Part shown: piece by piece, positions 6,221-50,690 of the stretch
Numbering within the stretch: position 1 is the first letter of the stretch
Layout of the letters: every line of letters starts with the position of its first letter
NCBI GenBank assembly: GCA_937931785.1
Contig: CALHAX010000048.1
Span: 1 to 50,691 of the forward strand
Origin: an uncultured Hyphomicrobiaceae bacterium
Lineage (GTDB): Bacteria > Pseudomonadota > Alphaproteobacteria > Rhizobiales > CALHAX01
Reading direction: 5' to 3'
DNA: 50,691 nucleotides
Position numbers and translations under genes: made by a program
Notes under the pieces: generated by a model
Told to the model about the DNA's origin: nothing
Seen by the model: the letters and a program-made list of their open reading frames with translations, nothing else
Database searches by the model: none

Positions 6221-7264
6221 TCAGCTACCGCTCGCAGCACCGAGGAAACCCGTCAGAACGTTCACGGTATTGATACCGATTTCCTCAACCGCATAACCAC
6301 CTTCCATCACAAACAACGTCGGCTTGTTGAGGGATGCCAATCGCCCGCCGTAGGTTTTAAAATCATCGGAGGTCAGTTTGAAGAAACTGATAGGATCCTT
6401 TTCGAACGTATCGACGCCAAGCGAGATCACGACGGCATCAGCACCGAACGCCTCGATTCGTTTCAGGGCATCGTCAAGCGCCTCGCCCCACACGGAGTAA
6501 GGCGTCCCTTCAGGCATCGGGTAATTGACATTAAATCCCTCACCATCGCCTGCACCTTTCTCATCTGCGTAACCAAGAAAACTTGGGAAACAATCTTCTG
6601 GCGCACCATGCAAGGAGAGGAAAAGAACGTCTTCACGCGAGTAGAAAATGTCCTGCGTGCCGTTCCCGTGATGAAAGTCAACGTCCAGCACAGCAACCTT
6701 CGTCGCGCCAGAATCCAGGAAACCCTGTGCCGCAATGGCCGCGTTGTTGAGGAAACAATAGCCGCCATATAGATCGCTGGCCGCGTGGTGACCGGGTGGT
6801 CGACACAGCGCAAAAGCCGTCCGCTCACCGTTCGAGACGATATTTTGCGCAGTCTGTGCAATCGCTGCAGAAGCCTGCACGGCTTTCCAGGTTGTCTCGG
6901 TGATCGCTGTTTCGATCGCCATGGCATAATAACCTGCCTTGCCCTCAATGTAATTTGGACACCGGTGTTGCTGCATGCGCCGAGCAGGTACGGTGGTCGG
7001 GATCAATTCTCCCTTATTCCCGTCCGCGACCCACTCCACCCAGCACGTCTGCAAGAATGTCACAAAGTTCGCATCATGGATCTTGTGAACGAGATCCATG
7101 TCAAGCGGATCAGGATCGACAAAATCCGTCAGGCCCGCCTCTGTCAGGCTTGCCATGATGTAATCCCACCGTTCCGGACACTCGAAAGGACGTACGAACA
7201 GACCGCCTGATAGTTCCCCTTTGGGGAAGTGGAACTTGTGGTCGTCACTACGAACGGTTTTCAT
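6221..7264 (-). CDS. aphA: Histone-deacetylase-family amidohydrolase, acetylpolyamine amidohydrolase type
   Basis: 347 residues, the family length. All expected catalytic elements are visible: the His pair in RPPGHHAA (H159, H160), zinc ligands D196 and H198 in DVDFHHGNGTQ, third ligand D285 in SLGVDTFEKD, and the transition-state Tyr Y324 in EGGYAVEEIG. Spacing and numbering lie within one residue of the characterised Mycoplana acetylpolyamine amidohydrolase, which removes acetyl groups from acetylputrescine and acetylspermidine. ATG 7264 follows AAAGGATG. It lies between an amidase and a serine hydrolase, downstream of a polyamine transporter. A broader deacylase role remains possible. Confidence 0.85.
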   Translation of the reverse strand: MKTVRSDDHKFHFPKGELSGGLFVRPFECPERWDYIMASLTEAGLTDFVDPDPLDMDLVHKIHDANFVTFLQTCWVEWVADGNKGELIPTTVPARRMQQHRCPNYIEGKAGYYAMAIETAITETTWKAVQASAAIAQTAQNIVSNGERTAFALCRPPGHHAASDLYGGYCFLNNAAIAAQGFLDSGATKVAVLDVDFHHGNGTQDIFYSREDVLFLSLHGAPEDCFPSFLGYADEKGAGDGEGFNVNYPMPEGTPYSVWGEALDDALKRIEAFGADAVVISLGVDTFEKDPISFFKLTSDDFKTYGGRLASLNKPTLFVMEGGYAVEEIGINTVNVLTGFLGAASGS

Positions 7265-8790: not shown

Positions 8791-9822
8791 CTACTGCAGC
8801 AATTTCGTCCAGATCTTGTCGATCGCTTTGGTGTATTTCGGACCACAGCTTTTACCAAACTTGACGGGCACCGAAGGCACCTGAACTTCCGGCGAAGACG
8901 CCATGTCTTTCGTCATATACTTGTCACTACCAACAATAGCGTTCGCATAGTTCGCGAAGTTAGAAAGCAAGGCCATGTTTTCTGGTGCCATCAGCCAGTT
9001 CATGAACGTCTTGGCATTCTCGACGTTCTTGGCACCTTTCGGAATCACCAGACTGTCGAACCAGCCAACCACACCCTCTTTCGGGAAGCAGTATTGGATC
9101 GTATCGTCTTTCAGACGACGCTTCATGGCATCGCCGTTCCATGCATTGGAAACCAGAGTAACACCGTCACCGAGGCGATCCATTGTGCCTTCAGAGCTGA
9201 AAACTTTCACAGACGATTTTTGCCCTTGCAGGAGCGATTGTACGGCCTTCAGATCATCCGTTTTCTCAGTACAGAAGTTCTGGCCAAGATAAATGTGCGC
9301 CAGGTTCACGACTTCTTCCGGCGTCTTGAAGACCCCGACTTTGCCTTTAGCCGCCGCGTTTGGCTCGAAAAACTCTTTCAGGCTGGCGCATTGACCGGCA
9401 CCACTACCTTTTTTCACCGCGTAGGATGTTGTGCCCATCTGATAGGGTGAGGAATATTTTTGCTCTGGATCCCAGCTTGGCTTCTTGAAAGCATCGGCAA
9501 CATGTTTGTAGTTCGGCATCGACTTGACATCGACTTCGATCAGCATGCCTTCCTTGATCATGATGTCGACGAAGTTCTGACTCGGCACCGCAAGGTCGTA
9601 TCCCGTCGCACCGGACTTTAACTTTGCAAGCAACGTCTCGTTCGAGTCGTAGGTATCGAGCGTCACTTTGATGCCCGTGTCCTTCGTAAACTTGTCCGTG
9701 ATGGTGTTGTCGATATAGTCCGTCCAGTTATAGAGGAACAATTCCCCCGCAGCCGTCGCCGGCGACACTGCCAGCCCGAGGGCTACCGTGCTGGCTGCCG
9801 CAAGTTTCATCACCTGTTTCAT
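8791..9822 (-). CDS. potD: Polyamine ABC transporter periplasmic binding protein (PotD/PotF family)
   Basis: 343 residues from ATG 9822, which follows GGAAGG. A clear Sec signal peptide (MKQVMKLAAASTVALGLAVS, cleavage near ATAAGE) precedes the family hallmark LFLYNWTDYIDN. Typical PotD/PotF segments follow: DTYDSNETLLAKLKSG, YDLAVPSQ, and the C-terminal hinge NFANYANAIVGS. It captures putrescine, spermidine or a related polyamine in the periplasm and delivers it to the two permeases upstream. An in-frame start ten codons earlier (9852) exists but would place extra charged residues before the signal. The gene order ATPase-permease-permease-binding protein matches potABCD. The exact polyamine is not decidable by eye. 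Confidence 0.9.
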   Translation of the reverse strand: MKQVMKLAAASTVALGLAVSPATAAGELFLYNWTDYIDNTITDKFTKDTGIKVTLDTYDSNETLLAKLKSGATGYDLAVPSQNFVDIMIKEGMLIEVDVKSMPNYKHVADAFKKPSWDPEQKYSSPYQMGTTSYAVKKGSGAGQCASLKEFFEPNAAAKGKVGVFKTPEEVVNLAHIYLGQNFCTEKTDDLKAVQSLLQGQKSSVKVFSSEGTMDRLGDGVTLVSNAWNGDAMKRRLKDDTIQYCFPKEGVVGWFDSLVIPKGAKNVENAKTFMNWLMAPENMALLSNFANYANAIVGSDKYMTKDMASSPEVQVPSVPVKFGKSCGPKYTKAIDKIWTKLLQ

Positions 9823-9854
9823 ACGTAACTTCCTTCCCTTTGCTTCCTTCAACG

Positions 9855-9879
9855 TCCAGACGATCTTATCACGTCTGGA
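9855..9879 (-). other. Intergenic hairpin between potC-like and potD-like genes
   Basis: Arms 9855-9862 and 9872-9879 (TCCAGACG/CGTCTGGA) are perfectly complementary around a 9-nt loop, and three more pairs form after a single-base bulge. There is no T-run on the downstream side, so it is unlikely to be a terminator. As an RNA structure it could protect or separate expression of the binding protein from the permeases. Confidence 0.5.
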
Positions 9880-9897
9880 ACGTCAAGCTCATTTGCG

Positions 9898-10776
9898 TCA
9901 ATGCACTGTGTGATCGTCACCCCTCGTGAGCAACCAATACGCTGTAATAAAAACCAGTGAAATCAAGAGCATAACTGTCGAAATCACATTAACTTCCGGT
10001 GAGATCCCCACGCGGATCATCCCGTAGATGTAAAGCGGTAGCGTGGTTGAGCCCGCTCCCGCGACCATCAGTGAAATGATGAAATCGTCTACCGAAATGA
10101 TGAATGACAACATCGCTCCCGCCACGATTCCAGGCAGCAATAGCGGAAACGTCACATACCGGAATGCCTTCCAGCGGCTGGCGTAGAGATCCATCGCCGC
10201 TTGTTCCAGCGTATCGTCCATGCCTTCCAGTCGTGCTCGGATTGGCAGGAACGCGAACGGAATACAAAAAACCGTATGCGCGATAATAAGCGTGAGAAGA
10301 CCAAATTGAATACCGATCACGACGAAAAAACTGAGTGTGGCAACAGCCGTCGCGATCTCGGGTACAATCAACGGAAGGGAAATCAGACCAAGTGACGCCG
10401 TGCTCCCTTTGAACCGTCCGCCACGCGCCAAAGCCAGCGCTGCAAGCAGCGCCATCGCCGTCGCCAATACTGTTGCTGCACTTGCAACAATGAGTGTGTT
10501 GATTGTTGCGGACTGAATATCATCGTTGGAAAACGCTTTGGCGTACCAGCTCGTGCTGAACCCGGTCCACTTTTGTGCCCGGTTATTGGCATTGAATGAA
10601 TAGACCACCAACACGACAATCGGCGCATAGAGGTAGATGAAGAACACCCATGTCCAGGTTTTCAGACCTGGAAAACTGCCAACTTCGAAACCCTTACGTT
10701 TCTGACCGGATGCCTTCCCGGCAACCTTCGCATCGGGTAGCGCAATATCCGGAGTTGTCCGAGCCGCATCCGTCAT
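9898..10776 (-). CDS. potC: Polyamine ABC transporter permease (PotC/PotI family)
   Basis: 292 residues. A roughly 40-residue hydrophilic N-terminal tail precedes six membrane segments, beginning WVFFIYLYAPIVVLVVYSFN, a hallmark opening of PotC/PotI proteins. The EAA loop is EQAAMDLYASRWKAFRYVTF. The start ATG 10776 overlaps the upstream permease stop in a TGATG junction, which I prefer to an upstream in-frame start that would run 27 codons into the neighbour. It pairs with the next permease to form the channel. Confidence 0.9.
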   Translation of the reverse strand: MTDAARTTPDIALPDAKVAGKASGQKRKGFEVGSFPGLKTWTWVFFIYLYAPIVVLVVYSFNANNRAQKWTGFSTSWYAKAFSNDDIQSATINTLIVASAATVLATAMALLAALALARGGRFKGSTASLGLISLPLIVPEIATAVATLSFFVVIGIQFGLLTLIIAHTVFCIPFAFLPIRARLEGMDDTLEQAAMDLYASRWKAFRYVTFPLLLPGIVAGAMLSFIISVDDFIISLMVAGAGSTTLPLYIYGMIRVGISPEVNVISTVMLLISLVFITAYWLLTRGDDHTVH

Positions 10777-11672
10777 CACGCCACCTCCATGGCACGCCGC
10801 CGCGCTGAAGACCGGGCTTGCAACATCAGCGCAATCATCACGATCGCAAGCAGACACATCGCGATGGCGGCACCAAACGGCCAGTTCCGTGACGATGCAA
10901 ATTGCAGATGAATGAGACTGCCCAGCATCAGTTTCCGCCCACCACCGAGCAGATCAGGCGCAACAAAGGCACCGAGACTCGGCACAAACACGAGAATACA
11001 TCCCGCCACAATGCCCGGAGTGGAAAGCGGCACGATCACTTCACGGAACACCCGATAGCGTCCGGCATACAGATCGCTTGCCGCTTCGATCAAACGGAAG
11101 TCCAGCTTCTCCATGGACGCATAGATCGGCAGAACCATCAACGGCAGGTACGTATAGATTAACCCGATCGCGATTGCCCCGTTGGAATACATCATGTCGA
11201 GCGTACCATCGAGAAACCCGATCGCTTTCAAAGGTTGCTCGATCACCCCGTCTGTTGAAAGAATTAAAATCCACGCATAGGTGCGGATCAGCAGGTTCGT
11301 CCAGAAAGGCAGGGTGACAAGGAACAAAAGCAGGTTTTGCGTTCGCGTGTTCTGTCGCGCGATATAGTAGGCAACCGGGAAACCAAGAATGAGACTTCCA
11401 ACCGTCGCGACCAGCGCCAGTGCAATCGAGCGCCAGATGATACCAAGGTAAATTCCGGTATAGGCTAACGTGTCATCAAAATCGCGCTCGAAGAGAAGCT
11501 GGACGTAAGCTTCAACGGTAAATCCGGGGTCAACACCGCCATATGGATCCGCCTCCATGAAGGAAAACACCAGCAGGATCACCATCGGCAGAACCATGAA
11601 GAAACCGACGGTCAACAAGGCGGGGCTGAGCAACCACCATGTTCTCCTGGTCTGTTCCGCGCCCACTGCCAT
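10776..11672 (-). CDS. potB: Polyamine ABC transporter permease (PotB/PotH family)
   Basis: 298 residues with six predicted membrane segments. The first is WLLSPALLTVGFFMVLPMVI, the standard PotB/PotH N-terminal helix, followed by a periplasmic loop of about 50 residues. The coupling motif is EAASDLYAGRYRVFREVIVP and is followed by LSTPGIVAG. The start ATG 11672 forms a TGATG overlap with the stop of the ATPase gene, indicating translational coupling. A TTG one codon earlier is less likely. Confidence 0.9.
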   Translation of the reverse strand: MAVGAEQTRRTWWLLSPALLTVGFFMVLPMVILLVFSFMEADPYGGVDPGFTVEAYVQLLFERDFDDTLAYTGIYLGIIWRSIALALVATVGSLILGFPVAYYIARQNTRTQNLLLFLVTLPFWTNLLIRTYAWILILSTDGVIEQPLKAIGFLDGTLDMMYSNGAIAIGLIYTYLPLMVLPIYASMEKLDFRLIEAASDLYAGRYRVFREVIVPLSTPGIVAGCILVFVPSLGAFVAPDLLGGGRKLMLGSLIHLQFASSRNWPFGAAIAMCLLAIVMIALMLQARSSARRRAMEVA

Positions 11673-12772
11673 CAATCCACAAGCATCCGTGCTGTACCGA
11701 CGGGAATACTGACGTGAACGGCATCCCCCGCTGCCAGGACCGTACTCGCATCGACAGGGTTTTGCTCCCGAACAGCAAGCGTCACACCACCGTCCAGCAT
11801 CACCTTGTAAGATGTTGACGTGCCAAGATAATCGGCGCTTTCAATTCGACCCGGTGTCGCCGCACCGCCGTTCGCGGAGGCAGCAAGGCTCATCTTCTCA
11901 GGTCGCAGTGCCAACGTAACCCGGTCGCCAACACCATGCCCGTCAACGACTGCCGCGCGCATCTCAAGACCACCCGCCGACTGGCATGTGGCAACACCGC
12001 CTTCCACGCTTGCGATATCTGCCTCGACAAAATTCGTGTCACCAATGAAATCGGCAACGAACCGGTTCAACGGCCGCTCATAAATATCGAGTGGCGATCC
12101 GATCTGCTGAATCAGTCCGTTGGACATCACCGCAATCCGATCACTCATCGTCAACGCTTCTTCCTGATCGTGCGTAACAAAGACAAACGTAATTCCGGTT
12201 TCACGCTGCAGCGTCTTGAGCTCGTTCCGCATCGCCTGCCGCAACTTGAGATCGAGTGCGGAGAGTGGTTCATCGAGCAACAAAACTTTGGGATTAGGCG
12301 CAAGAGCACGCGCCAGCGCCACCCTTTGCTGTTGTCCGCCAGACATCTGCGACGGCTTGCGTCGCGCAAAGTCTGACATCTTCACCAGCGACAGCGAACG
12401 CTCGACCGCTTCGCCAATCTCGGCTTTCGGTCGCCCCAACATCTTGAGGCCAAAACCGACGTTCTCGGCGACAGTCATGTGCGGGAACAAAGAGTAGTGC
12501 TGAAAGACCGTATTCACCGGCCGCTTGAACGGCGGCAGGTCCTCGATCTCATCGCCATAGAGGAAGATTTCCCCTTCGGTGGTCGCCTCAAAACCTGCGA
12601 TCAACCGCAACAAAGTCGTCTTGCCACACCCCGAAGGCCCCAGCAGTGTGAAGAATTCATTATCTGCAATGTCGAGTGATGCACGCTCAATCGCGGTGAC
12701 AGCGCCGCCACCGGAGCCATAGACCTTTCGCACGTTCCGAATATCGATCGCCGTGCGTCCGTCTTCTACCAC
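11672..12772 (-). CDS. potA: Polyamine ABC transporter ATPase (PotA/PotG family)
   Basis: About 366 residues. One ABC ATPase domain carries Walker [16 protein letters not shown], signature [12 protein letters not shown] and Walker [13 protein letters not shown], followed by a C-terminal TOBE regulatory domain (about residues 280-366), as in spermidine/putrescine ATPases. I choose GTG 12772 because GGGGAGG lies eight bases before it; the frame stays open to a GTG at 12802. It energises the two permeases that follow with one-base overlaps. A promoter-like element lies upstream at 12824-12853. Confidence 0.92.
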
Positions 12773-12823
12773 GCAACTGCCTCCCCAACAGTTCGACCTC
12801 ACAATTCCAGGAGGTCACTGCGC

Positions 12824-12886: not shown

Positions 12887-13765
12887 TTACGAAGCACCGG
12901 TTCCGTCATGCGTAACGATATGGCCGTAGAGTTCGGGTCTGCGATCTCGGTAGATCCCCCAGAATGCACGCATCTCGGCAATTTCGTCCAGGTCGAACGT
13001 CGCTGTAATCGCCGTTTCACTCGAACGATCCGCTTCAGCAATCATCTCGCCCGTCGGACCTGCAATGAACGATGACCCGTAGAATGTCAGCTCTGCTCCA
13101 TTGGCCCCTGGTTCCGTTCCGATCCGGTTCGACGCCACAAGCGGCATCAGGTTCGCACCGGCATGCCCTTGCTGCACCCGTTGCCAGTGCGGCGCAGAAT
13201 CCCACGTCGGATCAAGCAGCTCGGAACCTATAGCCGTTGGATACATCAGGATTTCCGCCCCCATCAGAGCCATGGAGCGCGCAGACTCAGGAAACCATTG
13301 ATCCCAGCACACTCCGACCCCAAGTCGACCGAAGGCTGTGTCCCAAACCCTGAACCCCGTATCACCAGGCGTGAAATAGAACTTTTCCTGATACCCGGAG
13401 CCATGCGGAATGTGACTTTTACGATACAACCCCAGATTCGTACCGTCTGCATCAAGGATCGACACAGTATTGAACCGCGTATTTCCAGCCAGCTCGTAAA
13501 AGCTGATCGGAAGCACCACGCCGAGTTCCTTCGCCAGACCTTGAAAATGTAACACCGCCGGATGATTCTCCGCCGGTTTGGCAAGCTTGTAGTGCTTTGG
13601 CTGTTCATTCTGACAGAAATACGGACCCTCAAACAACTCCTGCAAAAGGATGATATTGGCACCGTTCATTGCCGCATTTCGTACGAGAGTTTCTGCACGC
13701 GCAATATTATCATCCCAATTCCCGGAGCACGCCATTTGCGTCGCCGCCAGCGTTACCTTGCGCAT
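12887..13765 (-). CDS. aguB: N-carbamoylputrescine amidase (nitrilase superfamily)
   Basis: 292 residues, the AguB length. The C-N hydrolase triad is complete: Glu E43 in LLQELFEGPYF, Lys K116 in YRKSHIPHG and nucleophile Cys C153 in GVCWDQWFPE. The stretch FEGPYFCQNEQ is diagnostic for the plant/bacterial AguB branch, which converts N-carbamoylputrescine to putrescine, CO2 and ammonia in the agmatine pathway. ATG 13765 follows CGGAGAA. The partner enzyme agmatine deiminase (AguA) is not in the window. It lies directly upstream of the polyamine importer, so imported carbamoylputrescine or agmatine-derived compounds are plausible substrates. Confidence 0.9.
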   Translation of the reverse strand: MRKVTLAATQMACSGNWDDNIARAETLVRNAAMNGANIILLQELFEGPYFCQNEQPKHYKLAKPAENHPAVLHFQGLAKELGVVLPISFYELAGNTRFNTVSILDADGTNLGLYRKSHIPHGSGYQEKFYFTPGDTGFRVWDTAFGRLGVGVCWDQWFPESARSMALMGAEILMYPTAIGSELLDPTWDSAPHWQRVQQGHAGANLMPLVASNRIGTEPGANGAELTFYGSSFIAGPTGEMIAEADRSSETAITATFDLDEIAEMRAFWGIYRDRRPELYGHIVTHDGTGAS

Positions 13766-26871: not shown

Positions 26872-27807
26872 TTATCGACGCGCCAGATTACCCAACACAT
26901 TGCACACAACACGCGCAGCAGTGAGAGCGGCATGCCCAGTCGTGTCCTTGTCAGGATAAAACTCCACAATAGAGAACGCGGCCAGTGATGCCTTGTTCAT
27001 CGCGCCCTGGATCAGGTTCACGACGTCCCAGTACGAAAGTCCCCCCGGCGCCGGACCGATGACTGCGGGCATGATGGAGGGATCCAGGGCGTCGACATCA
27101 AAATTGATGAGCAGGTTGGCGTTGTTTGGTATCTTACTCAGGATATGCTCGATTCCACGTTCCATGAATTGTCGGGCCGGGATAAAATCGACGCCCCACG
27201 CCACGGCATCGTTGAAATCTGAGGGACGGGCGCTACCGATGCTGCGTGCCCCAACCTGAATGATGTTTTCGATGTGGGACATCTCGGAGGCGCGTCGCAT
27301 ATTACTGGAAAGCCCAAGGGTTTCGCCGTCAACGTCATCACGCCAGTCAATATGAGCATCGATTTGCAGGATTGTGAAAGGACCACGATCCGCGAATGCC
27401 TCGTAGAACGGTATCGGAATGGAATCGTCACCACCCAGCGCTATGGGAACAGCGTTGGCACTGAGAATCTCGCGGGTCGTATCGGTGATGGTTTTGCGGT
27501 TTGCAACGTGGTCATGCTCCGACCATGGGAGGTCGCCGTAATCTGCGAAACGGATACTGCCGTCACCCAGCACAGGCCCGCCAAGATCGAAATCCATATG
27601 GGCCGTGCCTGATGCGTCGTGCGCAACCGCCTTGCGCAACGCCCGTGGTGCACCCGCGGAATAGGTACCGGTCGCCGCATACGGTGTTGCGCAGGGGATA
27701 CCCAGAACGACCACATCAATAGGGCTCAGTTTGTCCAGCTCGACCTTGGGCAGTCCGAAGAACGTATCGGCATCACCCGCGCCAAGGATTTCAGCAATAT
27801 CAACCAC
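26872..27807 (-). CDS. Agmatinase/arginase family ureohydrolase with variant GGDDS motif
   Basis: 311 residues, agmatinase length. Metal-binding motifs: GGDDS (125-129), DAHID (150-154), NFDVDALDP (D237, D239), and a C-terminal VEFYPDKD-TTGHAALTAARV block. Family members normally have GGDHS, whose His is a manganese ligand; here it is D128. An Asp could still bind metal, so activity is possible but the metal or substrate may differ (agmatine, guanidinobutyrate, guanidine and proclavaminate are alternatives). The gene is monocistronic on this strand, divergent from a small membrane-anchored protein. It is consistent with the polyamine/guanidine theme of the window. Confidence 0.82.
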   Translation of the reverse strand: MVDIAEILGAGDADTFFGLPKVELDKLSPIDVVVLGIPCATPYAATGTYSAGAPRALRKAVAHDASGTAHMDFDLGGPVLGDGSIRFADYGDLPWSEHDHVANRKTITDTTREILSANAVPIALGGDDSIPIPFYEAFADRGPFTILQIDAHIDWRDDVDGETLGLSSNMRRASEMSHIENIIQVGARSIGSARPSDFNDAVAWGVDFIPARQFMERGIEHILSKIPNNANLLINFDVDALDPSIMPAVIGPAPGGLSYWDVVNLIQGAMNKASLAAFSIVEFYPDKDTTGHAALTAARVVCNVLGNLARR

Positions 27808-30308: not shown

Positions 30309-30408
30309 GTGGCATCCTGGTTTGTGAAAACAAACGGATACTGCGAGAGGGGGATTGGCATAACGCTCATTGCAGGTGATGGTGTCGAACCTTGTCAGGA
30401 GTCTCCGC

Positions 30409-31917
30409 ATGAGCACGCAACCAAATATTCTCCTCATCCAGACAGATCAACTCGTATCAAGTGTCTTGCGTTCATACGGTGATCCGATCTGCCATGCGCC
30501 AAACCTGGATGCTCTTGCAAACAATGGTCTTGTTTTCGAGACGGCGTACTGCAATTTTCCATTATGCGGACCATCACGCTTCTCAATGGCAACGGGGCAA
30601 ATGGCATCAAAAGTCGGGGCTTGGGACAACGGAGCAGAGTGGCCCGCAGAGATTCCGACATATGCACACTACATGAGACACGCAGGCTATCTGACCTGCC
30701 TGTCAGGAAAGATGCACTTCGTTGGACCGGACCAGTTGCATGGGTTCGAAGAACGGTTGACATCGGACATCTATCCGTCAGATTTCCTGTGGAGTGCCGA
30801 CTGGAATCAAACGGATTTTCACGGCGCGACAGATGAACGTATGCTGCGCGATTGCGGGCCGTGCGAACGGTCCGTGCAAATCGACTATGATGATGAAACG
30901 GCGTTCCATGCGGCACGTTGGCTATTCGATTATCGTCGAAGTTCGGAAAATCGACCATTTTTTCTCCATGTATCGTTCACTCATCCACACGATCCGTATC
31001 TGTGCCTGCCGAAGCATTGGGATCTCTATCGCGATGAAGACATTCCTATGCCCGCAGTATTTTCACTCCCCGACGTAGCCCATGATGCGCACAGCCTTGC
31101 TTTGTTACGAAATCATGGGCTGCTCGGGCTTGATGTCAGCGAAGCGCAGGTTCGACGGGCGCGGCGGGCTTACTATGGCGCGGTCAGTTACATTGACGAA
31201 AAGGTTGGCGAGCTCCTGGAGGCGCTGGACGGTACGGGTCTTCGCGAGAATACACTCATCATCTTCACGTCCGACCATGGTGAAATGCTGGGTGAGCGTG
31301 GGCTCTGGCTCAAGAAGAATTTCTATGAGCCGGCCATGCGTGTTCCAATGATTCTGAGCGGTGCTGGAGTATCAACGGGACAGCGTTCCAGAACACCGGT
31401 ATCGCTGATCGATATCCTCCCGACATGCCTCGGTGCTGCGGGGCGCGAAATTTTAGAGGCCGGACCTGAGGATCTGGACGGCACGAACATGCTGGCCTTG
31501 CCGTTGGATGATGCGAATCGTGCTGTATATGCGGAAATTCTGAGTGAAGGAACGCCAGCGCCTGCGTTCATGATTCGACGCGGATCATTGAAATACATCT
31601 CCTGCAGTGCCTACCCGCCAATGCTGTTTGATGTGTCCAGTGATCCCACCGAGATCAACAATCTGATAGATGATCCTGCCTGTCGCGAACAGCGTGCCAT
31701 GTTCGCTGATGAAGTCGCCGCACGATGGAACGAGCAAGCTCTGAAGCTCGATATACGGCGCAGCCAACAGCGGAGAAAATTTATCATGGAATCCATGACG
31801 CAGGGCGCACCCGTTTCATGGGATTACACACCGCAGCATCGAGAGAGCTGGTTTCGTGGGCAAGAAAATTACAACGACTGGGCCTTTTCTCACCTTCCTG
31901 CTCACTCCAGGAGTTGA
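30409..31917 (+). CDS. Type I sulfatase (alkaline phosphatase superfamily)
   Basis: 502 residues from ATG 30409, which follows CAGGAG; an in-frame upstream start at 30370 is less likely. The sulfatase signature is CGPSR (C53-R57), where Cys would be converted to formylglycine, followed by FSMATGQ. Metal-binding elements are the N-terminal ILLIQTDQL and FTSDHGEMLGERGLWLKKN. It has no signal peptide, so it acts in the cytoplasm on an imported sulfate ester; choline-sulfatase and arylsulfatase-like enzymes and some phosphonate hydrolases share this layout. The maturation enzyme is not in the window. The gene lies between two parts of a split ABC transporter. Confidence 0.85.
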   Translation: MSTQPNILLIQTDQLVSSVLRSYGDPICHAPNLDALANNGLVFETAYCNFPLCGPSRFSMATGQMASKVGAWDNGAEWPAEIPTYAHYMRHAGYLTCLSGKMHFVGPDQLHGFEERLTSDIYPSDFLWSADWNQTDFHGATDERMLRDCGPCERSVQIDYDDETAFHAARWLFDYRRSSENRPFFLHVSFTHPHDPYLCLPKHWDLYRDEDIPMPAVFSLPDVAHDAHSLALLRNHGLLGLDVSEAQVRRARRAYYGAVSYIDEKVGELLEALDGTGLRENTLIIFTSDHGEMLGERGLWLKKNFYEPAMRVPMILSGAGVSTGQRSRTPVSLIDILPTCLGAAGREILEAGPEDLDGTNMLALPLDDANRAVYAEILSEGTPAPAFMIRRGSLKYISCSAYPPMLFDVSSDPTEINNLIDDPACREQRAMFADEVAARWNEQALKLDIRRSQQRRKFIMESMTQGAPVSWDYTPQHRESWFRGQENYNDWAFSHLPAHSRS

Positions 31918-37646: not shown

Positions 37647-38132
37647 ATGCAAAAAGCGCTTTTGATCGATCCGGAAAAATGCACAAGCTGCCTCCAATGC
37701 GAGCTGGCATGCTCTTTCGAGCAAGAAGGGGTGTTCAACCCGGCCAAATCACGGATCAAGGTTTTCGAGTTCGAACACGGTTTGAAGGCAATTCCGTATA
37801 CCTGCACTCAGTGCTCGGAAGCCTGGTGCCTGCACGCCTGTCCTGTCGAAGCGATCACGATTAACGAAGCGACGGGCGCCAAGGAAGTTAATCCAAACAC
37901 CTGCGTCGGCTGCAAGGTTTGTACGATCGCCTGTCCGTTCGGCACGATCAACTACAACGCGGATAGCGGCAAAGTGATCAAGTGCGACTTGTGCAGCGGC
38001 GACCCGGCGTGTGCAAAAGCATGCCCCACCGATGCAATCACATACGTAGATGCGAACTGGACCGGTTACGACCGTATGCAGGAGATGGCGCTGGTTGGGC
38101 ACGGACGTCCTGCGAAAGGAGCAGCACAATGA
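37647..38132 (+). CDS. aorA: Polyferredoxin subunit of a tungsten aldehyde oxidoreductase (AorA type)
   Basis: 161 residues with sixteen Cys arranged for four [4Fe-4S] clusters: CTSCLQCELAC (from C12), CTQCSEAWCLHAC, CVGCKVCTIAC and CDLCSGDPACAKAC. In the characterised Aromatoleum aromaticum enzyme such a subunit stacks with AorB and wires electrons along the complex to the FAD subunit. ATG 37647 starts the conserved segment MQKALLIDPEKC; a longer frame to 37524 has no cluster motifs and is rejected. The stop overlaps the aorB start (ATGA). It is predicted to be cytoplasmic. Confidence 0.9.
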   Translation: MQKALLIDPEKCTSCLQCELACSFEQEGVFNPAKSRIKVFEFEHGLKAIPYTCTQCSEAWCLHACPVEAITINEATGAKEVNPNTCVGCKVCTIACPFGTINYNADSGKVIKCDLCSGDPACAKACPTDAITYVDANWTGYDRMQEMALVGHGRPAKGAAQ

Positions 38133-40006
38133 GCGGTGGAAATGTAAAGGGCGCAAACGCCAAGGCGCAAAAAGGCATGGGTTGGCAGGGCACCGTACTT
38201 CGTGTCGACCTGACTAGGGGCGAGGTTCACAAAGACCCACTCAACATGGAATGGGCCAACGACTATCTTGGCGAACGTGGACTTGCGACCAAGTATCTTT
38301 ACGAGATGATGGATCCAAAGGCCGATGCCATGAGCCCGGAAAACGTGCTCATTTTCGCAACGGGCCCCCTCAGCGGAACGATGTCGTCCACGAGCGGGCG
38401 TTATGCAGTCGTGACCAAGGGGCCGCTGACAGATGCCATTGCGTGCTCGAATTCGGGCGGCAAGTTTGGCGCATTCCTTAAGTTTGCCGGCTACGACATG
38501 CTGATCGTCGAAGGCAGGTCGGAAAAACCGGTTTATCTGAACATCGCTGACGATACGGTCGAAATACTTTCTGCAGACGATCTGTGGGGAAAGACTGTTT
38601 GGGAAACGGAAGAGTGGATCAAGACCACACACCAGAACCCGCAAATGAAAGTTGCATCCATCGGTGTCGCAGGTGAAACCGGGAATCGCTACGCCTGCGT
38701 GGTGAACGATTTGCACCGCGCTGCAGGGCGCTCTGGCGTCGGCGCGGTCATGGGCTCCAAGAATCTGAAAGCCGTCGCAGCATGGGGCACCAAGGGGGTC
38801 GCCGTTGATGATCCAGTCACATTCATGAAGGCGGTGTCTGAGACACACACGGCGTTGCACGAGAGCAGCGGTCGCAAGGGTTTGACCAAGTACGGCACGC
38901 ACGCCATGCTGGACGCAATGCAGAAGTTTGGCGGCCTGCCAACCCGCAACTTTGAGGACGTTCAGTTCGAAGGGGCAAAAAAGATCGGTTCCCGCGCAGT
39001 TCGTGAACCGAATGAGAACGGACACGTCAATCTGTTGACGAACAAGGCCTGTTTCGGCTGCACGATCGCGTGTGGACGGATCGCTCATATCGATGAAAAG
39101 CACTTCTCCATCGTGAACCGTCCAAAGTATCGGCATGCGTCAGGCGGGTTGGAATATGAGACTGCGTATGCCTTCGGACCTTTGTGCGGCGTGGATGATG
39201 TCGATGCACTCACCTTCGCCGGGTACATGACGAATGAACACGGATACGATCCGATTTCCTTCGGCGGCACACTCGCAGCGGCCATGGAGCTCTACGAAAT
39301 GGGTGTGCTGACCAAGGAGCACACCGACGGAATTGAACTCAAATTCGGTAGTGCAGAAGCGCTGGTTGTAATGTCGGAAAAAACCGGCAAGGGCGAAGGT
39401 TTCGGCAAGGAGCTTGCGCTTGGTTCGAAGCGCTTGTGTGAAAAGTACGGGCACCCGGAAGTCGCCATGGTCGTAAAGGGTCAGGAATTTGCTGGCTACG
39501 ATAGTCGGGCATTGCAGGGCATGGGGCTCGGTTACGCAACGTCCAATCGTGGCGCCTGTCACCTGAAGCACGATGTGTTCGAACCGGACATGGAAGATCA
39601 AACCGGTAAGGGCAAGGCCGAACCGTGCAAGACGTCGCAAGACCAGATTGCAATGATCGACTCGACCGGTCTTTGTCTGTTCACGGCAGGTGATTTCGGA
39701 ACTGAAGGCTATCGCAAACAGGTCGATGCGGCCTGCCCAGGCGACTGGTCTACAGAGCGGATGCTGGAGATCGGTGAGCGCGTCTGGAACCTGGAGCGCA
39801 TGTTCAACCTGGAAGCAGGCCTGACCAAGGCGGACGATACGTTGCCGAAAAGACTGCTTGAAATCCCTGCACCCTCAGGAACTGCCAAGGGTAAAGTCGC
39901 TGAACTGGATATCATGCTGCCAGAGTATTACGAGCTGCGCGGCTGGGGCGACGACGGTGTACCCACCAAAGACACGCTCGACCGGCTGGGGCTGGCGGCG
40001 CGTTAG
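38129..40006 (+). CDS. aorB: Tungsten-dependent aldehyde oxidoreductase, catalytic subunit (AOR family)
   Basis: 625 residues, the AOR length. The [4Fe-4S] cluster ligands are C308, C311 and C315 (CFGCTIAC) and C516 (DSTGLCLF). The tungstopterin-binding N-terminal half has VDLTRGEV, GPLSGT, SGRYAVVTKGPLT and RSGVGAVMGSKNLKA. GGLEYETAYAFGPLCG contains the active-site Glu block. It oxidises aldehydes to carboxylic acids with W bound by two pterins; AorC-linked forms can also reduce acids. The overlap with aorA and the following FAD and MoaD-like genes match the aorABCD order. Such enzymes are best known from anaerobes, but degraders tolerant of oxygen carry them too. Confidence 0.92.
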   Translation: MSGGNVKGANAKAQKGMGWQGTVLRVDLTRGEVHKDPLNMEWANDYLGERGLATKYLYEMMDPKADAMSPENVLIFATGPLSGTMSSTSGRYAVVTKGPLTDAIACSNSGGKFGAFLKFAGYDMLIVEGRSEKPVYLNIADDTVEILSADDLWGKTVWETEEWIKTTHQNPQMKVASIGVAGETGNRYACVVNDLHRAAGRSGVGAVMGSKNLKAVAAWGTKGVAVDDPVTFMKAVSETHTALHESSGRKGLTKYGTHAMLDAMQKFGGLPTRNFEDVQFEGAKKIGSRAVREPNENGHVNLLTNKACFGCTIACGRIAHIDEKHFSIVNRPKYRHASGGLEYETAYAFGPLCGVDDVDALTFAGYMTNEHGYDPISFGGTLAAAMELYEMGVLTKEHTDGIELKFGSAEALVVMSEKTGKGEGFGKELALGSKRLCEKYGHPEVAMVVKGQEFAGYDSRALQGMGLGYATSNRGACHLKHDVFEPDMEDQTGKGKAEPCKTSQDQIAMIDSTGLCLFTAGDFGTEGYRKQVDAACPGDWSTERMLEIGERVWNLERMFNLEAGLTKADDTLPKRLLEIPAPSGTAKGKVAELDIMLPEYYELRGWGDDGVPTKDTLDRLGLAAR

Positions 40007-40067
40007 TTTCCAAGCTTTCTCCCTTTGGGAGAAAGCGTTCCTGCCTGACGACTTGGACAGATATACG

Positions 40068-41330
40068 ATGAGCAATTCTCCATACGTTATCGTTGGTGCC
40101 GGACCCGCCGGTGTGATTGCAGCCGAGACGCTGCGGACAAACAATCCTGTGACACCTGTCCTCATGATTGGTGAGGAGAAGGAAGCCCCGTATTCGCGCA
40201 TGGCGCTGCCCTATCTGCTTGCGGAAGATATAAAGGAAACCGGCACGCACCTCCGACATACAGACGGCCATTTTGATACCAGGGGGATCGAAATCCGCAA
40301 CGATCGGGTTTCTGCCGTAACAGCGGCAGAAAAATCCGTCACACTCGCAAGTGGCGGAACGCAAGCATTTTCCAAGCTCCTGATCGCAACAGGATCTCAC
40401 GCCATTCGCCCACCGATCCCAGGTACGGATCTTCCAGGTGTGGAGAATTGCTGGACGCTTGAGGATGCCCGCGCAATTGCGGCCAAGGCATCAAAGGGCT
40501 CGAATGTTGTGCTCATGGGGGCCGGATTCATTGGCTGTATCGTGCTTGAGGCTCTTGCTGCGCGCGGCGTCCATCTTACGGTCGTCGAGATGGAAGACCG
40601 GATGGTGCCACGCATGATGGATCAGACCGGCGGCGCGATGATCAAGAGCTGGTGCGAAGCCAAAGGCGTGACGGTTCTGACATCCACGCGGATCGAGGAA
40701 ATCGCTGCAAATAACGGCGCTCTGAAACTCACGCTTGGAGACGGAAAATCATTGGACGCGGACCTCGTGGTTTGTGCGGCAGGTGTGAAACCAAACATCG
40801 CCTTTCTTGAGGGAAGCGGCATCAACACGGATACGGGCGTTCTCGTGAACGACCGGATGCAAACGAGCGATGCGAACGTATTTGCAGCAGGAGACGTCGC
40901 ACAGGGGATCGATTTCTCGACAGGTGCAAACGAGATCCACGCCATTCAACCAACAGCTGCCGATCACGGCAGAACAGCAGCCATGAACATGATCGGCATC
41001 GATACGCCGTTCCAGGGTAGCTTGTCGATGAACGTGCTCAATACGCTCGGCCTGATCACATCATCGTTCGGGCAATGGGATGGCGTTGCAGGTGGCGACA
41101 CAGCGGAAATCACGGACAACGATCGGTTCCGCTATGTGCGACTGTCGTTCCAGGATGACGTTCTTGTGGGAGCCCTGTCTCTTGGGATGACGCAACATGT
41201 TGGCGTTCTCCGCGGATTGATCCAGTCGAAGGTCAGGCTCGGACATTGGAAAGAACGCTTGATGGCAAACCCACTTCTAATCATGGAAGCCTATCTTGCA
41301 CGCACGCAAGGCAGCGTGTTCGGGATCTGA
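40068..41330 (+). CDS. aorC: FAD/NAD(P)H oxidoreductase subunit (AorC type)
   Basis: 420 residues from ATG 40068. Two Rossmann motifs are present: VIVGAGPAGVIAAETLR for FAD (residues 6-22) and VVLMGAGFIGCIVLEALA for NAD(P) (about 144-161). FAD-contact ATGSH (about 107) and AAGDVAQG (about 266) are those of the pyridine-nucleotide-disulfide oxidoreductase class. There is no redox-active Cys pair (CxxxxC) near the FAD motif, so it is an electron-transfer subunit rather than a disulfide reductase. It would exchange electrons between AorA clusters and NAD. Confidence 0.87.
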   Translation: MSNSPYVIVGAGPAGVIAAETLRTNNPVTPVLMIGEEKEAPYSRMALPYLLAEDIKETGTHLRHTDGHFDTRGIEIRNDRVSAVTAAEKSVTLASGGTQAFSKLLIATGSHAIRPPIPGTDLPGVENCWTLEDARAIAAKASKGSNVVLMGAGFIGCIVLEALAARGVHLTVVEMEDRMVPRMMDQTGGAMIKSWCEAKGVTVLTSTRIEEIAANNGALKLTLGDGKSLDADLVVCAAGVKPNIAFLEGSGINTDTGVLVNDRMQTSDANVFAAGDVAQGIDFSTGANEIHAIQPTAADHGRTAAMNMIGIDTPFQGSLSMNVLNTLGLITSSFGQWDGVAGGDTAEITDNDRFRYVRLSFQDDVLVGALSLGMTQHVGVLRGLIQSKVRLGHWKERLMANPLLIMEAYLARTQGSVFGI

Positions 41331-41337
41331 ACACACT

Positions 41338-41580
41338 ATGAAAATTCATGTGGAAACGACCGACGCGCTGTTCGAATTGCTGGGTGGCGAAGAAGCAACC
41401 GATGTCGAGCTGACTGAGGGAGCGTCGCCAAACGAAGCGCTCACTGCGCTCAACATCCCGACAAATGCCGGTTATCTTTTGATTGTGAACGAAGCTATTG
41501 TTCCCAAAGCACAACGCGATGACCACGTGCTCGTCGACGGCGATGTATTGCAGATTTTACCTCCGCTGAAGGGGGGGTAA
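41338..41580 (+). CDS. aorD: MoaD/ThiS-like sulfur carrier (AorD type)
   Basis: 80 residues from ATG 41338, seven bases after the aorC stop. The ubiquitin-like fold ends in DGDVLQILPPLKGG; the C-terminal Gly-Gly is the site of thiocarboxylation in MoaD/ThiS proteins. In aor operons this dedicated carrier is thought to supply dithiolene sulfur for the tungstopterin. Other sulfur carriers of the family (ThiS, CysO-like) are alternatives, but the position in the operon favours pterin synthesis. The last bases contain a run of seven G residues just before the stop codon, next to the GS-like gene. Confidence 0.85.
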   Translation: MKIHVETTDALFELLGGEEATDVELTEGASPNEALTALNIPTNAGYLLIVNEAIVPKAQRDDHVLVDGDVLQILPPLKGG

Positions 41581-41586
41581 ACCGGG

Positions 41587-42966
41587 ATGGTCACGACACC
41601 AACATTCCACGACGAAATCACCACCTTCATTGCCGCACACGGTGAGCCATCCCGGGTCGAGGTTTTGCTACCCGACATGAACGGGCGATTGCGCGGCAAG
41701 TCTCTACCGACAGACGGTCTCGTAAAACTCGCCAAAAATGCCGTCCGCATGTGTTGGGGCACGCAGGCGCTTGATATCTGGGGCGTTGATGTCGACGGTG
41801 TTGGCGTTGGCGCAGAAATCGGTGACCCGGACGGAATCTGCCGTCCAGTGCCTGGAACACTGGGGATTGCAAGGTCTCGCAATGATAACGTTGGTCCTGT
41901 TGCGCAGGTCCTTGTCACAATGGATATGCCAGACGGCACACCATGCTTTCTGGATCCGCGCGTGCGACTGCAGGAAATCATAGGCCGCTATACCGCCCGT
42001 AAACTGACGCCGGTTGTTGCCGTTGAACTTGAATTCTATCTCGTTGCCCTGGAGCATGATGGCGCCCCAGCTCAACCACCACAATTGCCTGGCCAACAGG
42101 CGCGCGCCAGTTCACCTCAGGTTTATGACATGGATGTTGCGGGCGCATTCGCTCCCGTTCTGGATGATATTTCCACCGAATGTGACCGGCTGAATATTCC
42201 AGCCGACACGGTCATTGCAGAATTTGGCCCCGGTCAATTCGAAATCAATCTGATGCACGTCGCTGACGCAGCAAAAGCTTGCGATCACGCGATCCTCTTC
42301 AAGCGGATCGTACACAGCGTGGCGTTGCGACATGGTTATCGTGCAACATTCATGGCCAAGGTTTATGGCGACCAACCGGGAAGCGGTTGCCATATCCACG
42401 CCAGCGTTCTCGATTCCAATGGGATGAATATTTTTGCGTCCAACACGTCTGAAGCCTCTGACACTCTCATGCACGCCGTCGGCGGATGCCTCACAACGGC
42501 ACGCGATGTAACGGCGCTTTTCGCTCCACATCTGAATTCCTATCGCCGTTTTGCACCGGGCGCTTTTGCGCCGTCGCAGTTGAACTGGGGCGGCGATCAC
42601 AGAGACGTGGCGATCCGGATTCCAGAAGTGCAGGGACCGGGAGCTCGACTTGAGCATCGCCTCGCTGGTGCGGACACCAACCCCTATCTGCTGGTCGCGG
42701 CGGTTCTTGGCGGAATGCTGCATGGCATGGATGCAAAGATATTGCCGGAGCACCGAGTAAAGGATCACGCAACGAAAGTCAGCGGACCGCGCCTCTCCCA
42801 CGACTGGCTGACGGCCATCGAGGAATTTGCAGCCTCAGACTTTGTTGCCGAAATGTTCGGGCACGATTATCAGTCTGTCTACGCCACCTGTCGTCGCTCC
42901 GAGTGTGGAACCGCGATGCGTGCGGTGACAGACTTCGAATTCGCAACGTACCTTCCTCGACTTTGA
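41587..42966 (+). CDS. Glutamine-synthetase-like gamma-glutamyl ligase (PuuA/GlnT type)
   Basis: 459 residues with the GS fold. The N-terminal beta-grasp (RVEVLLPDMNGRLRGKSLP) is followed by the catalytic core: VELEFYL (E147, E149), EFGPGQFEINL (E212, E219), GSGCHIHASV (H269, H271), and RIPEVQGPGARLEHRLAGAD. The motif NWGGDHRDVAIRI replaces the NWG-DNR form of true glutamine synthetase. These enzymes join glutamate gamma-carboxyl to amines such as putrescine, ethanolamine or methylamine with ATP. There is no adenylylation loop that I can identify. It starts six bases after aorD, so it is part of that operon. Confidence 0.85.
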   Translation: MVTTPTFHDEITTFIAAHGEPSRVEVLLPDMNGRLRGKSLPTDGLVKLAKNAVRMCWGTQALDIWGVDVDGVGVGAEIGDPDGICRPVPGTLGIARSRNDNVGPVAQVLVTMDMPDGTPCFLDPRVRLQEIIGRYTARKLTPVVAVELEFYLVALEHDGAPAQPPQLPGQQARASSPQVYDMDVAGAFAPVLDDISTECDRLNIPADTVIAEFGPGQFEINLMHVADAAKACDHAILFKRIVHSVALRHGYRATFMAKVYGDQPGSGCHIHASVLDSNGMNIFASNTSEASDTLMHAVGGCLTTARDVTALFAPHLNSYRRFAPGAFAPSQLNWGGDHRDVAIRIPEVQGPGARLEHRLAGADTNPYLLVAAVLGGMLHGMDAKILPEHRVKDHATKVSGPRLSHDWLTAIEEFAASDFVAEMFGHDYQSVYATCRRSECGTAMRAVTDFEFATYLPRL

Positions 42967-43022
42967 TTGGTGAGCGACCGGTAGACCCGGTTTCGTACCG
43001 CTGACATTCCAGGACAAGACCT

Positions 43023-45041
43023 ATGGCCATTTTGCTCGGGATCGATACCGGTGGCACCTACACGGATGCCGTGCTTCTCGACGACGCTAAGTCGGTAACA
43101 ACTGCCGTTGTAGCGTCGGCCAAGGCCCTGACAACCCGCCATGACCTGAGCATCGGAATTGGCGAAGCAATTGCTGCGGTGTGTGATGCTCAGCCCAAGG
43201 CTGCAGCCAATATCGCACTGGTGTCACTTTCCACTACGTTGGCGACAAACGCCGTGGTGGAAGCACAGGGCGGCCGGATCGGACTCGTGCTCATCGGCCT
43301 TGGAGACAAAGCGCTGGAACGTGCTGACCTCAAGGCCGCATTGGCAGGCGATCCACATATCTCCGTTGTTGGAGGCCACAATGCGCATGGGAATGCAGTG
43401 TGCGACGCGGATCTAGGAACGGTTGAACGCTGGCTCGACGAGGTTGGATCCGCCGTATCGGGTTATGCAGTTGCGGGTGAATTTGCCGTCCGCAATCCGG
43501 AACATGAAATCGCTGTACGCGATCTGATCCTTGAAAAAACCGGTCGCGCAGCGACGTGTTCTCACGAGTTGTCCAGCAAACTGGATGGGCCGCGCCGTGC
43601 GTTGACCTCCGTTCTGAACGCCCGCCTTATCGGCCTTATACAAGAGCTTATCGCGTCAACCGAAAGACTGATGGCAGAGCGAAATATCTCGGCTCCGATG
43701 ATGGTTGTGCGTGGCGACGGCGCGTTGATTGCGGCGGATGTGGCGAAAACCTGCCCAGTCGAAACCATCCTGTCAGGTCCGGCCGCAAGTCTGGTTGGCG
43801 CGGCGTATCTCACTGGCATTGAACGCGGAATGGTGTCGGACATCGGGGGAACAACTACAGATGTGGCGCTGCTCCATAACGGTGCACCACGGCTTGATCC
43901 TGCCGGAGCAACCGTTGGCGGTTGGCGCACAATGGTCGAAGCAGTCGCGATGTGGACCGTTGGCCTGGGTGGCGACAGCGAAGTGCGTCTTGAACGGGAC
44001 GGACTGGCCGCCGGATTGGCGCTCGGCCCACGCCGGGCTATTCCACTCAGTTTACTCGCGCGAGATCACCCAAGGTTGGTTCTCGATACATTGAAGCGGC
44101 AAGCGAAAAAGGATCGTGTCGATGAACGCGACGGCATGTTTGCCGTTCAGGTACGTGATGCAGGCATCCACGCCGATGGTCTGCGCGACGTAGAGAAAAA
44201 ACTGATTGAAGCCTTAACCGACGGTCCAGTGCCATTGGAGAAACTCATCTCCGTTCGCATGCAGTTGGGTGCACTCGAAAAACTGGTAAGCCGTGGCCTG
44301 GTCATGATTTCGACCTTAACACCGTCAGACGCGGCACAGGTTTTGGGCCTTTACGACGGATGGAATGTCGAAGCTGCTCGGCTAGGTGCTACGATCTTCG
44401 CTGGGCGCCGTAACGCACGAGGAACAGCCATTGCTGACAATGGAGATACATTGGCGCAAATGGTCATCGACACCCTCACACGAAAATCAGCCGATACACT
44501 CCTGGATGCAGCATTTACAGAAGACGGTTTTTCAGTAACGCAGCCCTCCGCAGATCCTGTTGTTGCGGCGGGCTTGGGTGAGCATAAGGGTGTGGTGCGG
44601 ATTGACATCGGGCTTGATGCTCCATTGATCGGATTGGGCGCATCCGCGGAGACATATTACCCTGCAGTTGCTACCCTATTGAGAACAGAGGGTGTTATTC
44701 CGCGCCATGCAGAGGTGGCCAATGCCGTTGGCGCCGTCGTTGGCCGTGTACGCATTTCTGGCGAAGCGATCGTTTCTCAACCAGAAGCAGGGCGTTTTCG
44801 CGTGCACTTGCCTGGAAGTACGAACACGTTCCCCAGCCTCATCGAGGCCTATGATTATGGAAAAAAAGAATTGGACGCATATGTGCGCATACGCGCAAAA
44901 GAAGCAGGCGCAGATGATATAACGATCAAATTCAACCAACATGAAAAGAAAGTCGACGCAGATGGGCAGGAGCTGTTTGTCGAATCAATTCTGACCGCAG
45001 AAGCAACTGGGCGTCCCCGGTTTTTCTCCTCAAACCATTGA
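43023..45041 (+). CDS. Hydantoinase/oxoprolinase family ATPase (HyuA-type) with divergent C-terminal half
   Basis: 672 residues. The N-terminal ASKHA ATPase core (about 1-320) has GIDTGGTYTDAVLLD, SVVGGHNAHG-like loop, MVVRGDGALIAADVA, ILSGPAASLVGAAYLTG and VSDIGGTTTDVALL, all standard for N-methylhydantoinase A and 5-oxoprolinase A chains. The C-terminal half (RIDIGLDAPLIGLGASAETY and later) ends with RFRVHLPGSTNTFPSL and a Lys/Glu-rich tail. No HyuB partner is in the window, although family members often need one. The gene follows the ligase after 56 bases behind CAGGACAAG. It would open a lactam or hydantoin ring, for example 5-oxoproline, but this is inference. Confidence 0.8.
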   Translation: MAILLGIDTGGTYTDAVLLDDAKSVTTAVVASAKALTTRHDLSIGIGEAIAAVCDAQPKAAANIALVSLSTTLATNAVVEAQGGRIGLVLIGLGDKALERADLKAALAGDPHISVVGGHNAHGNAVCDADLGTVERWLDEVGSAVSGYAVAGEFAVRNPEHEIAVRDLILEKTGRAATCSHELSSKLDGPRRALTSVLNARLIGLIQELIASTERLMAERNISAPMMVVRGDGALIAADVAKTCPVETILSGPAASLVGAAYLTGIERGMVSDIGGTTTDVALLHNGAPRLDPAGATVGGWRTMVEAVAMWTVGLGGDSEVRLERDGLAAGLALGPRRAIPLSLLARDHPRLVLDTLKRQAKKDRVDERDGMFAVQVRDAGIHADGLRDVEKKLIEALTDGPVPLEKLISVRMQLGALEKLVSRGLVMISTLTPSDAAQVLGLYDGWNVEAARLGATIFAGRRNARGTAIADNGDTLAQMVIDTLTRKSADTLLDAAFTEDGFSVTQPSADPVVAAGLGEHKGVVRIDIGLDAPLIGLGASAETYYPAVATLLRTEGVIPRHAEVANAVGAVVGRVRISGEAIVSQPEAGRFRVHLPGSTNTFPSLIEAYDYGKKELDAYVRIRAKEAGADDITIKFNQHEKKVDADGQELFVESILTAEATGRPRFFSSNH

Positions 45042-50613: not shown

Positions 50614-50690
<77 letters not shown>

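Follow-up and report, generated by a model that had tools for sequence, protein, structure and literature searches.

A tungsten aldehyde oxidoreductase gene row with a PuuA-like ligase and a lone HyuA-type ATPase in an uncultured Hyphomicrobiaceae bacterium

A stretch of 50,691 nucleotides from an uncultured Hyphomicrobiaceae bacterium (contig CALHAX010000048.1; the whole stretch is called the window below) carries a row of six genes that encode a tungsten aldehyde oxidoreductase (AOR; aorA, aorB, aorC and aorD), a glutamine-synthetase (GS)-like ligase and a HyuA-type ATPase standing without HyuB. The gene arrangement itself is real; it lies on one contig of a draft genome and no second case was found. 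We favour, with a probability of roughly 45%, a reading in which an NAD-coupled AOR (aorABC with aorD) is combined with a relocated gamma-glutamyl-polyamine synthetase and oxidises gamma-glutamylated or free aminoaldehydes derived from polyamines. Two known modules are thus newly combined in one genome, which is a clue and not an established pathway. Our literature search, in which some matches were judged without their full text, found no published tungsten AOR tied to polyamine gamma-glutamylation. The row proposes a testable substrate class for the AOR, gamma-glutamyl-aminoaldehydes or free aminoaldehydes, suggests that polyamine breakdown may include a tungsten route and highlights a clade of lone HyuA proteins.

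The gene row and its aldehyde oxidoreductase

A sequence-only reading of the window had described aorA and aorB joined by an ATGA overlap, then aorC and aorD, the ligase gene after a gap of 6 bases and the HyuA gene after a further 56 bases, all on one strand. Coordinates and Pfam matches agree with this description, and gene order, spacing and the six product families are established (Table 1). A candidate ribosome site of the ligase gene is formed by purines inside the 3' end of aorD, and a pattern scan of the aorD-ligase and ligase-HyuA gaps returned no terminator-like site on the + strand. The six genes probably form one transcription unit. The gap of 61 bases between aorB and aorC holds a perfect hairpin (Table 1), and its folding energy is -21.1 kcal/mol (z -3.3). 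Among seven relatives the corresponding gap had no hairpin of at least 8 bp, and one relative had a hairpin of 7 bp. The scan for promoter-like sites gave two, both on the - strand, against a mean of 3.8 in shuffled sequences, and none rose above chance. An FNR-type motif had five one-mismatch matches, a total below the chance mean, with none of them 5' of aorA. Nothing resembling a riboswitch or other known RNA was detected in the window except a tRNA at 50614-50687.

For each of AorA, AorB and AorC the top match among solved structures is a chain of 8c0z, the NAD-linked tungsten AOR of Aromatoleum, in keeping with the AorABC type that the sequence-only reading had proposed. Alignment of AorB with 8c0z showed that the Cys-rich region is kept (acfgctiacgri in both proteins, glc against gic), and we take its cysteines to be cluster ligands. 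The genes of the tungsten-pterin, Fe-S and FAD/NAD subunits are all present together, the combination by which Class III is recognised. These matches support the assignment, at the level of predicted proteins, to the Aromatoleum AorABC type, a Class III tungsten oxidoreductase (AorABC / WorLSN). The Aromatoleum enzyme is described as a three-subunit, NAD-linked AOR of broad specificity that accepts aliphatic aldehydes (PMC6365974). It is named as the sole characterised enzyme of Class III in a survey that gives a known metabolic role to five of 92 tungsten oxidoreductase clades (PMC13328260).

The ligase and its polyamine setting

The ligase aligns with E. coli PuuA at 38% identity over 454 columns. 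At the Glu position of the PGYEAP motif of ammonia-type GS it has Phe, and PuuA has Tyr; this residue we take to be the flap glutamate Glu327 with its role in ammonia ligases. A GS catalytic domain lacking that glutamate, as found here, is the mark of gamma-glutamyl-amine ligases. The ligase is single in its genome, where its next own match is at 35%, and its best match in the 121 nearest genomes is at 52% (genome G036).

The strongest evidence on the kind of ligase comes from the polyamine context of its relatives. Public genomes yielded 374 relatives in one scan, and we took the best 80 (at most 44% identity) with up to 10 kb on each side, giving stretches with a median of 21.3 kb (18.0 kb for the AOR loci and 19.0 kb for the HyuA loci compared below). 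The list of polyamine queries was composed after the relatives' clusters had been inspected. At least one polyamine-pathway homologue lay near 75 of these best 80 relatives, whereas the same queries found one at 3 of 72 AOR loci and at 4 of 27 HyuA loci; the matches in the latter two sets were at family level (27-40%), and one of them (L262) is an annotated bioA. A second ligase (GSb) was near 40 of the 80, a PuuB-like oxidase near 57 and an amidotransferase of the same kind near 42, and at locus L083 the order runs from the window-type ligase (GSa) to a divergent GSb, an aminotransferase, a PuuB-like and a PuuD-like gene. The FastTree tree of the ligases has several long branches, and we relied only on the clade of nine rows that includes the window's ligase (support 95). 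All eight other members of this clade have a polyamine-pathway homologue nearby, at L112 an arginase-family gene as the sole one. The polyamine setting of the relatives is established and, above similarity to PuuA and the missing flap glutamate, supports the prediction of a PuuA-like ligase that makes gamma-glutamyl-amines.

Polyamine homologues are also present elsewhere in the genome. Contig C106 holds genes for an arginase-family protein, a class I amidotransferase, GSb, a class III aminotransferase and a PuuB-like FAD oxidoreductase (42% to E. coli PuuB), and no window-type ligase. Since C106 holds the rest of the cluster without it, the ligase gene was apparently relocated from a polyamine cluster to its place behind aorD. 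This direction, from cluster to aor, is suggested by the many relatives that show the clustered state.

If our favoured reading is correct, the ligase would join an amine (putrescine or a related one) to glutamate at the expense of ATP, giving a gamma-glutamyl-amine whose free amino end could be turned into an aldehyde by an enzyme encoded on C106, either the PuuB-like oxidase or the aminotransferase of class III. The AOR would then use NAD to oxidise the gamma-glutamyl-aminoaldehyde, or a free aminoaldehyde, to the corresponding acid, replacing the aldehyde dehydrogenase PuuC or working alongside it, and an amidase would release glutamate. The corresponding E. coli steps are given in the order PuuA, PuuB, PuuC, PuuD (PMC9397018). 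It is the gene order and the breadth of the Aromatoleum enzyme that suggest the AOR step. An aminoaldehyde passed from the ligase to the AOR had been put forward in the sequence-only reading, and because the AOR is of the Aromatoleum type and the ligase of the gamma-glutamyl-amine kind such a substrate is reasonable; the polyamine context adds to it.

Relatives, competing explanations and the lone HyuA protein

Several points weigh against the favoured reading. The row contains no gene for an amine oxidase or aminotransferase, so that this part of the proposed sequence of steps has to be sought outside the operon, where the candidates are those of C106. The ligase scores 169.7 bits against the NCBIfam model of gamma-glutamylputrescine synthetase (NF045547), below its cut-off of 650; we therefore file it as PuuA-like and not as PuuA proper. 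E. coli PuuD as query had no match on C106, the amidotransferase there belonging to a wider class. E. coli PuuC as query had 11 matches in the genome, the best at 45%, so the AOR is not the sole candidate for the aldehyde step: it may act as an additional route, as one for low oxygen, or have no connection with the pathway. The argument that the AOR is used since the genome has no aldehyde dehydrogenase was dropped, this PuuC-like candidate being present. A second aorABCD set of this genome, on contig C98, has no ligase or HyuA gene near it. Transcription of the row and the activities of its enzymes (tungsten content, NAD-linked oxidation, amine ligation) are predictions from sequence. Finally, no second case of the row was found in the genomes and loci searched, which comprised the 121 nearest genomes (own included), 397 of the order, 385 of the class (for AorB only) and the loci of the best 80 of the 374 ligase relatives.

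With distant matches and the own genome counted, AorB had matches in 63 of the 397 order genomes and in 35 of the 385 class genomes. The AOR loci were fetched at about 46% identity or more and comprised 51 of 56 order rows (the other five were fragments), 20 of 26 class rows and the genome's own C98; six class rows, two of them fragments, and matches at 36% or below fell outside this set. A window-type ligase or HyuA gene was near none of these 72 other AOR loci, 57 of which extend 3 kb or more beyond aorB. AorB is at least 70% identical to the window's at 16 loci, and 11 of these extend as far. In the other direction aorB was near none of the 27 HyuA loci and none of the 80 ligase loci, where the HyuA surroundings covered 22 of about 50 full-length order rows, some on short contigs. 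Plasmid records gave 21 matches to HyuA and 10 to AorB with no accession in common; the surroundings examined were those of five HyuA records only. The pairing of aor with the ligase and HyuA genes, which the sequence-only reading would have conserved in relatives, was thus not seen in a sample that included no other member of the window genome's family and in which 15 of the 72 AOR loci have less than 3 kb of sequence after aorB; within these limits the result counts against that reading. The 15 loci include the nearest AorB (81%; L081, genome G009), where the contig ends inside the gene. A search for another member of the family of G036 returned G036 only. At a few AOR loci aorB stands without a recognisable aorA or aorC.

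These neighbourhoods bear directly on the explanation that competes most seriously with ours, namely that the juxtaposition is due to chance. The aorABCD genes would then be a general aldehyde-detoxifying cassette behind which the ligase and HyuA genes landed, to be merely read through. We give this a substantial probability, somewhat short of an even chance. The absence of either gene from the other AOR loci is in accordance with it, as is the finding that the neighbours of AOR, read by eye, change from locus to locus. Six other genomes (G036, G037, G038, G078, G009 and G143) hold both a member of the close AOR clade and a lone HyuA, in each case on different contigs. Set against chance are the spacing of 6 bases, the shared direction of the six genes and the gaps free of + strand terminator-like sites. 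In addition the pathway of the ligase yields aminoaldehydes, and an aldehyde oxidase beside it is a functionally sensible match. The lone HyuA was present in 6 of 8 genomes with the close AOR clade against 26 of 388 others (p 4e-6), a co-occurrence that we treat as a lead only because kinship is uncontrolled and the genes are unlinked.

Three further loci bring AOR or HyuA genes near GS-family genes. At L239 (733-6688) an AOR (AorB 75%) converges with genes on the other strand for a class III aminotransferase, another GS-family protein, an amidohydrolase and a GMC oxidoreductase, possibly a second link between AOR and amines. The AOR locus L078 has a GS-family gene some kb away, 29% identical to a paralogue in the window's genome and cut by the end of the stretch. 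In G143, which also has the close AOR, 2.1 kb separate the lone HyuA gene of locus L216 (1558-6904) from an oppositely oriented GS-family gene with 28% identity to the window's ligase. A weak HyuA match at L127 was absent at a stricter cut-off.

It is unlikely that the ligase instead acts on ethanolamine, an aromatic amine or a short alkylamine, with an alcohol dehydrogenase or an oxygenase then giving rise to the aldehyde that the AOR oxidises. GS-like ligases acting on ethanolamine and on 1-naphthylamine have been described (PMC6529630, PMC11335346), and both the ligase's score under the putrescine model cut-off and the breadth of the Aromatoleum AOR would suit such a substrate, but the polyamine-pathway homologues near 75 of the best 80 ligase relatives argue for the polyamine setting of our favoured reading.

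The HyuA-type protein belongs to a clade that, at 49% identity or more, is found in 32 of the 396 other genomes of the order. Its predicted structure (mean predicted local distance difference test score, pLDDT, 86) has a HyuA-type fold across most of its length and superimposes on the beta subunit of acetone carboxylase (5svc_B; Z 30.0, 525 residues, 3.7 Å) and on the caprolactamase subunit CapA (6yra_A; Z 19.9, 530 residues, 6.2 Å). Of the features that characterise HyuAB, OplAB and CapAB the protein has the ATP motifs, DxGGTxTD and DxGGT (D8-D15 and D273-D280), which show no variation across an alignment of 20 proteins (19 relatives and that of the window), and no partner HyuB is encoded alongside. 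HyuB had no match in the window or in the 22 examined HyuA loci, and the two HyuB genes of the genome are on other contigs, each beside its own HyuA-like stretch. The neighbours of HyuA elsewhere vary and include, by Pfam, Rieske oxygenases, FrhB-like and FMN-reductase-like proteins, SDR enzymes, a class III aminotransferase and an FAD oxidoreductase; on annotated plasmids they are malate synthase, biotin genes and choline and betaine genes. No constant partner was found among the relatives' neighbourhoods examined. Because it has no fixed partner and its neighbours vary, we give HyuA no pathway role beyond ATP-dependent activation; it is probably an ATP-dependent activating protein and may be a passenger in the row.

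Two kinds of neighbourhood of the lone HyuA gene were also recorded. It lies near Rieske oxygenases, a trimethylamine-methyltransferase-family gene or choline/betaine genes at L056, L057, L260 and L263. At L061 (10324-11583) an arginase-family gene is found 17 bases upstream on the same strand.

The sequence-only reading went further and had HyuA open a lactam, such as 5-oxoproline, a role that our results do not support. We know of no 5-oxoproline among the products of gamma-glutamyl-polyamine breakdown. A scheme in which ligase, AOR and HyuA act in line and HyuA opens 5-oxoproline or 2-pyrrolidone arising from the AOR reaction draws on the fold shared with CapA and acetone carboxylase beta and on the invariant ATP motifs, but it is very improbable given that the caprolactamase metal site is described as lying in CapB, whose site mutants are inactive (PMC8453981), that neither the operon nor the HyuA loci supply a HyuB, that both HyuB genes of the genome have an adjoining HyuA-like stretch and that the HyuA relatives lack a constant partner. 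We also think it unlikely that the row encodes a tungsten-dependent variant of gamma-glutamylated polyamine breakdown in which the ligase would cap the amine, the AOR would replace PuuC and HyuA without HyuB would activate or open a cyclic or gamma-glutamyl product with ATP. If such a tungsten pathway were true, polyamines would be burned via a metal enzyme suited to low oxygen.

Context in the window and comparison with known systems

Outside the operon the window contains further polyamine-type genes (Table 1). The AguB gene and the polyamine-type transporter lie about 28-33 kb upstream of the ligase gene; the PotC and PotD/PotF models match the transporter below their cut-offs. The Hist_deacetyl-family product at 6221-7264 is, we presume, a possible acetylpolyamine amidohydrolase. 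Between 17134 and 26370 the genes for malate synthase G, a CoA-transferase III, an enoyl-CoA hydratase family protein, a BhcA-like aminotransferase (below cut-off), a GntR regulator and a YdiJ-like FAD/Fe-S protein are adjacent and look like a glyoxylate-type module by their predicted products. A choline-sulfatase above its NCBIfam cut-off (30370-31917) adjoins a nickel/peptide-type ABC binding protein.

Table 1. Genes of the row, the hairpin within it and polyamine-type genes elsewhere in the window
Feature	Position	Strand	Basis of assignment
aorA	37647-38132	+	Fer4 domains (Pfam); 4Fe-4S small subunit (WorS); 8c0z chain C, E 4.2e-74
aorB	38129-40006	+	AFOR_N and AFOR_C (Pfam); tungsten-pterin large subunit (WorL); 8c0z chain A, E 5.3e-226
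Perfect 10-bp hairpin with 3-base loop, aorB-aorC gap	40014-40036	+	Found by script
aorC	40068-41330	+	Pyr_redox_2 (Pfam); FAD/NAD subunit (WorN); 8c0z chain E, E 1.7e-140
aorD	41338-41580	+	ThiS PF02597; MoaD/ThiS-like, C-terminal Gly-Gly
GS-like ligase, PuuA-like (predicted gamma-glutamyl-amine synthetase)	41587-42966	+	Gln-synt_C (Pfam)
Lone HyuA-type ATPase without HyuB	43023-45041	+	Hydant_A_N and partial Hydantoinase_A, profile 1-135 of 291 (Pfam)
Context, outside operon: Hist_deacetyl-family protein	6221-7264	-	PF00850; no NCBIfam match
Context, outside operon: polyamine-type ABC transporter (PotD/F-, PotC-, second permease, PotA-like)	8791-12802	-	PotA-type TIGR01187, 366.5 against cut-off 355.6
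Context, outside operon: N-carbamoylputrescine amidase (AguB)	12887-13765	-	TIGR03381, 448.3 bits, cut-off 410.25
Context, outside operon: agmatinase/arginase-family protein	26872-27807	-	PF00491; TIGR01230 below its cut-off

Compared with known systems, the lone HyuA protein resembles CapA (6yra) and the acetone carboxylase beta subunit (5svc) in its fold over most of the length and in both phosphate-binding motifs, and differs from them in having no partner B subunit and in that their last 75 residues or so are unmatched in the alignments. The AOR resembles that of Aromatoleum aromaticum (8c0z) in its three homologous subunits and in the MoaD-like gene behind them. In the Aromatoleum operon the MoaD-like aorD and aorE are described 3' of aorABC (PMC6365974), whereas in the window aorD is followed by the ligase and HyuA genes. 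With the E. coli Puu pathway the row shares a ligase related to PuuA over 454 columns that likewise misses the flap glutamate, and the genome adds PuuB-like and class III aminotransferase genes on C106. Unlike in E. coli, the ligase scores under the PuuA cut-off, its neighbour is a tungsten AOR in place of puuB, puuC or puuD, and the genes are spread over two contigs. The genome can also be compared with the two-GS polyamine clusters of other proteobacteria, ordered GSa, amidotransferase, GSb and PuuB or with GSa divergent from GSb. Their GSb, amidotransferase, aminotransferase and PuuB part is present on C106, and whereas GSa stands beside the rest in clusters such as L083 and L141, here it is found behind aorD.

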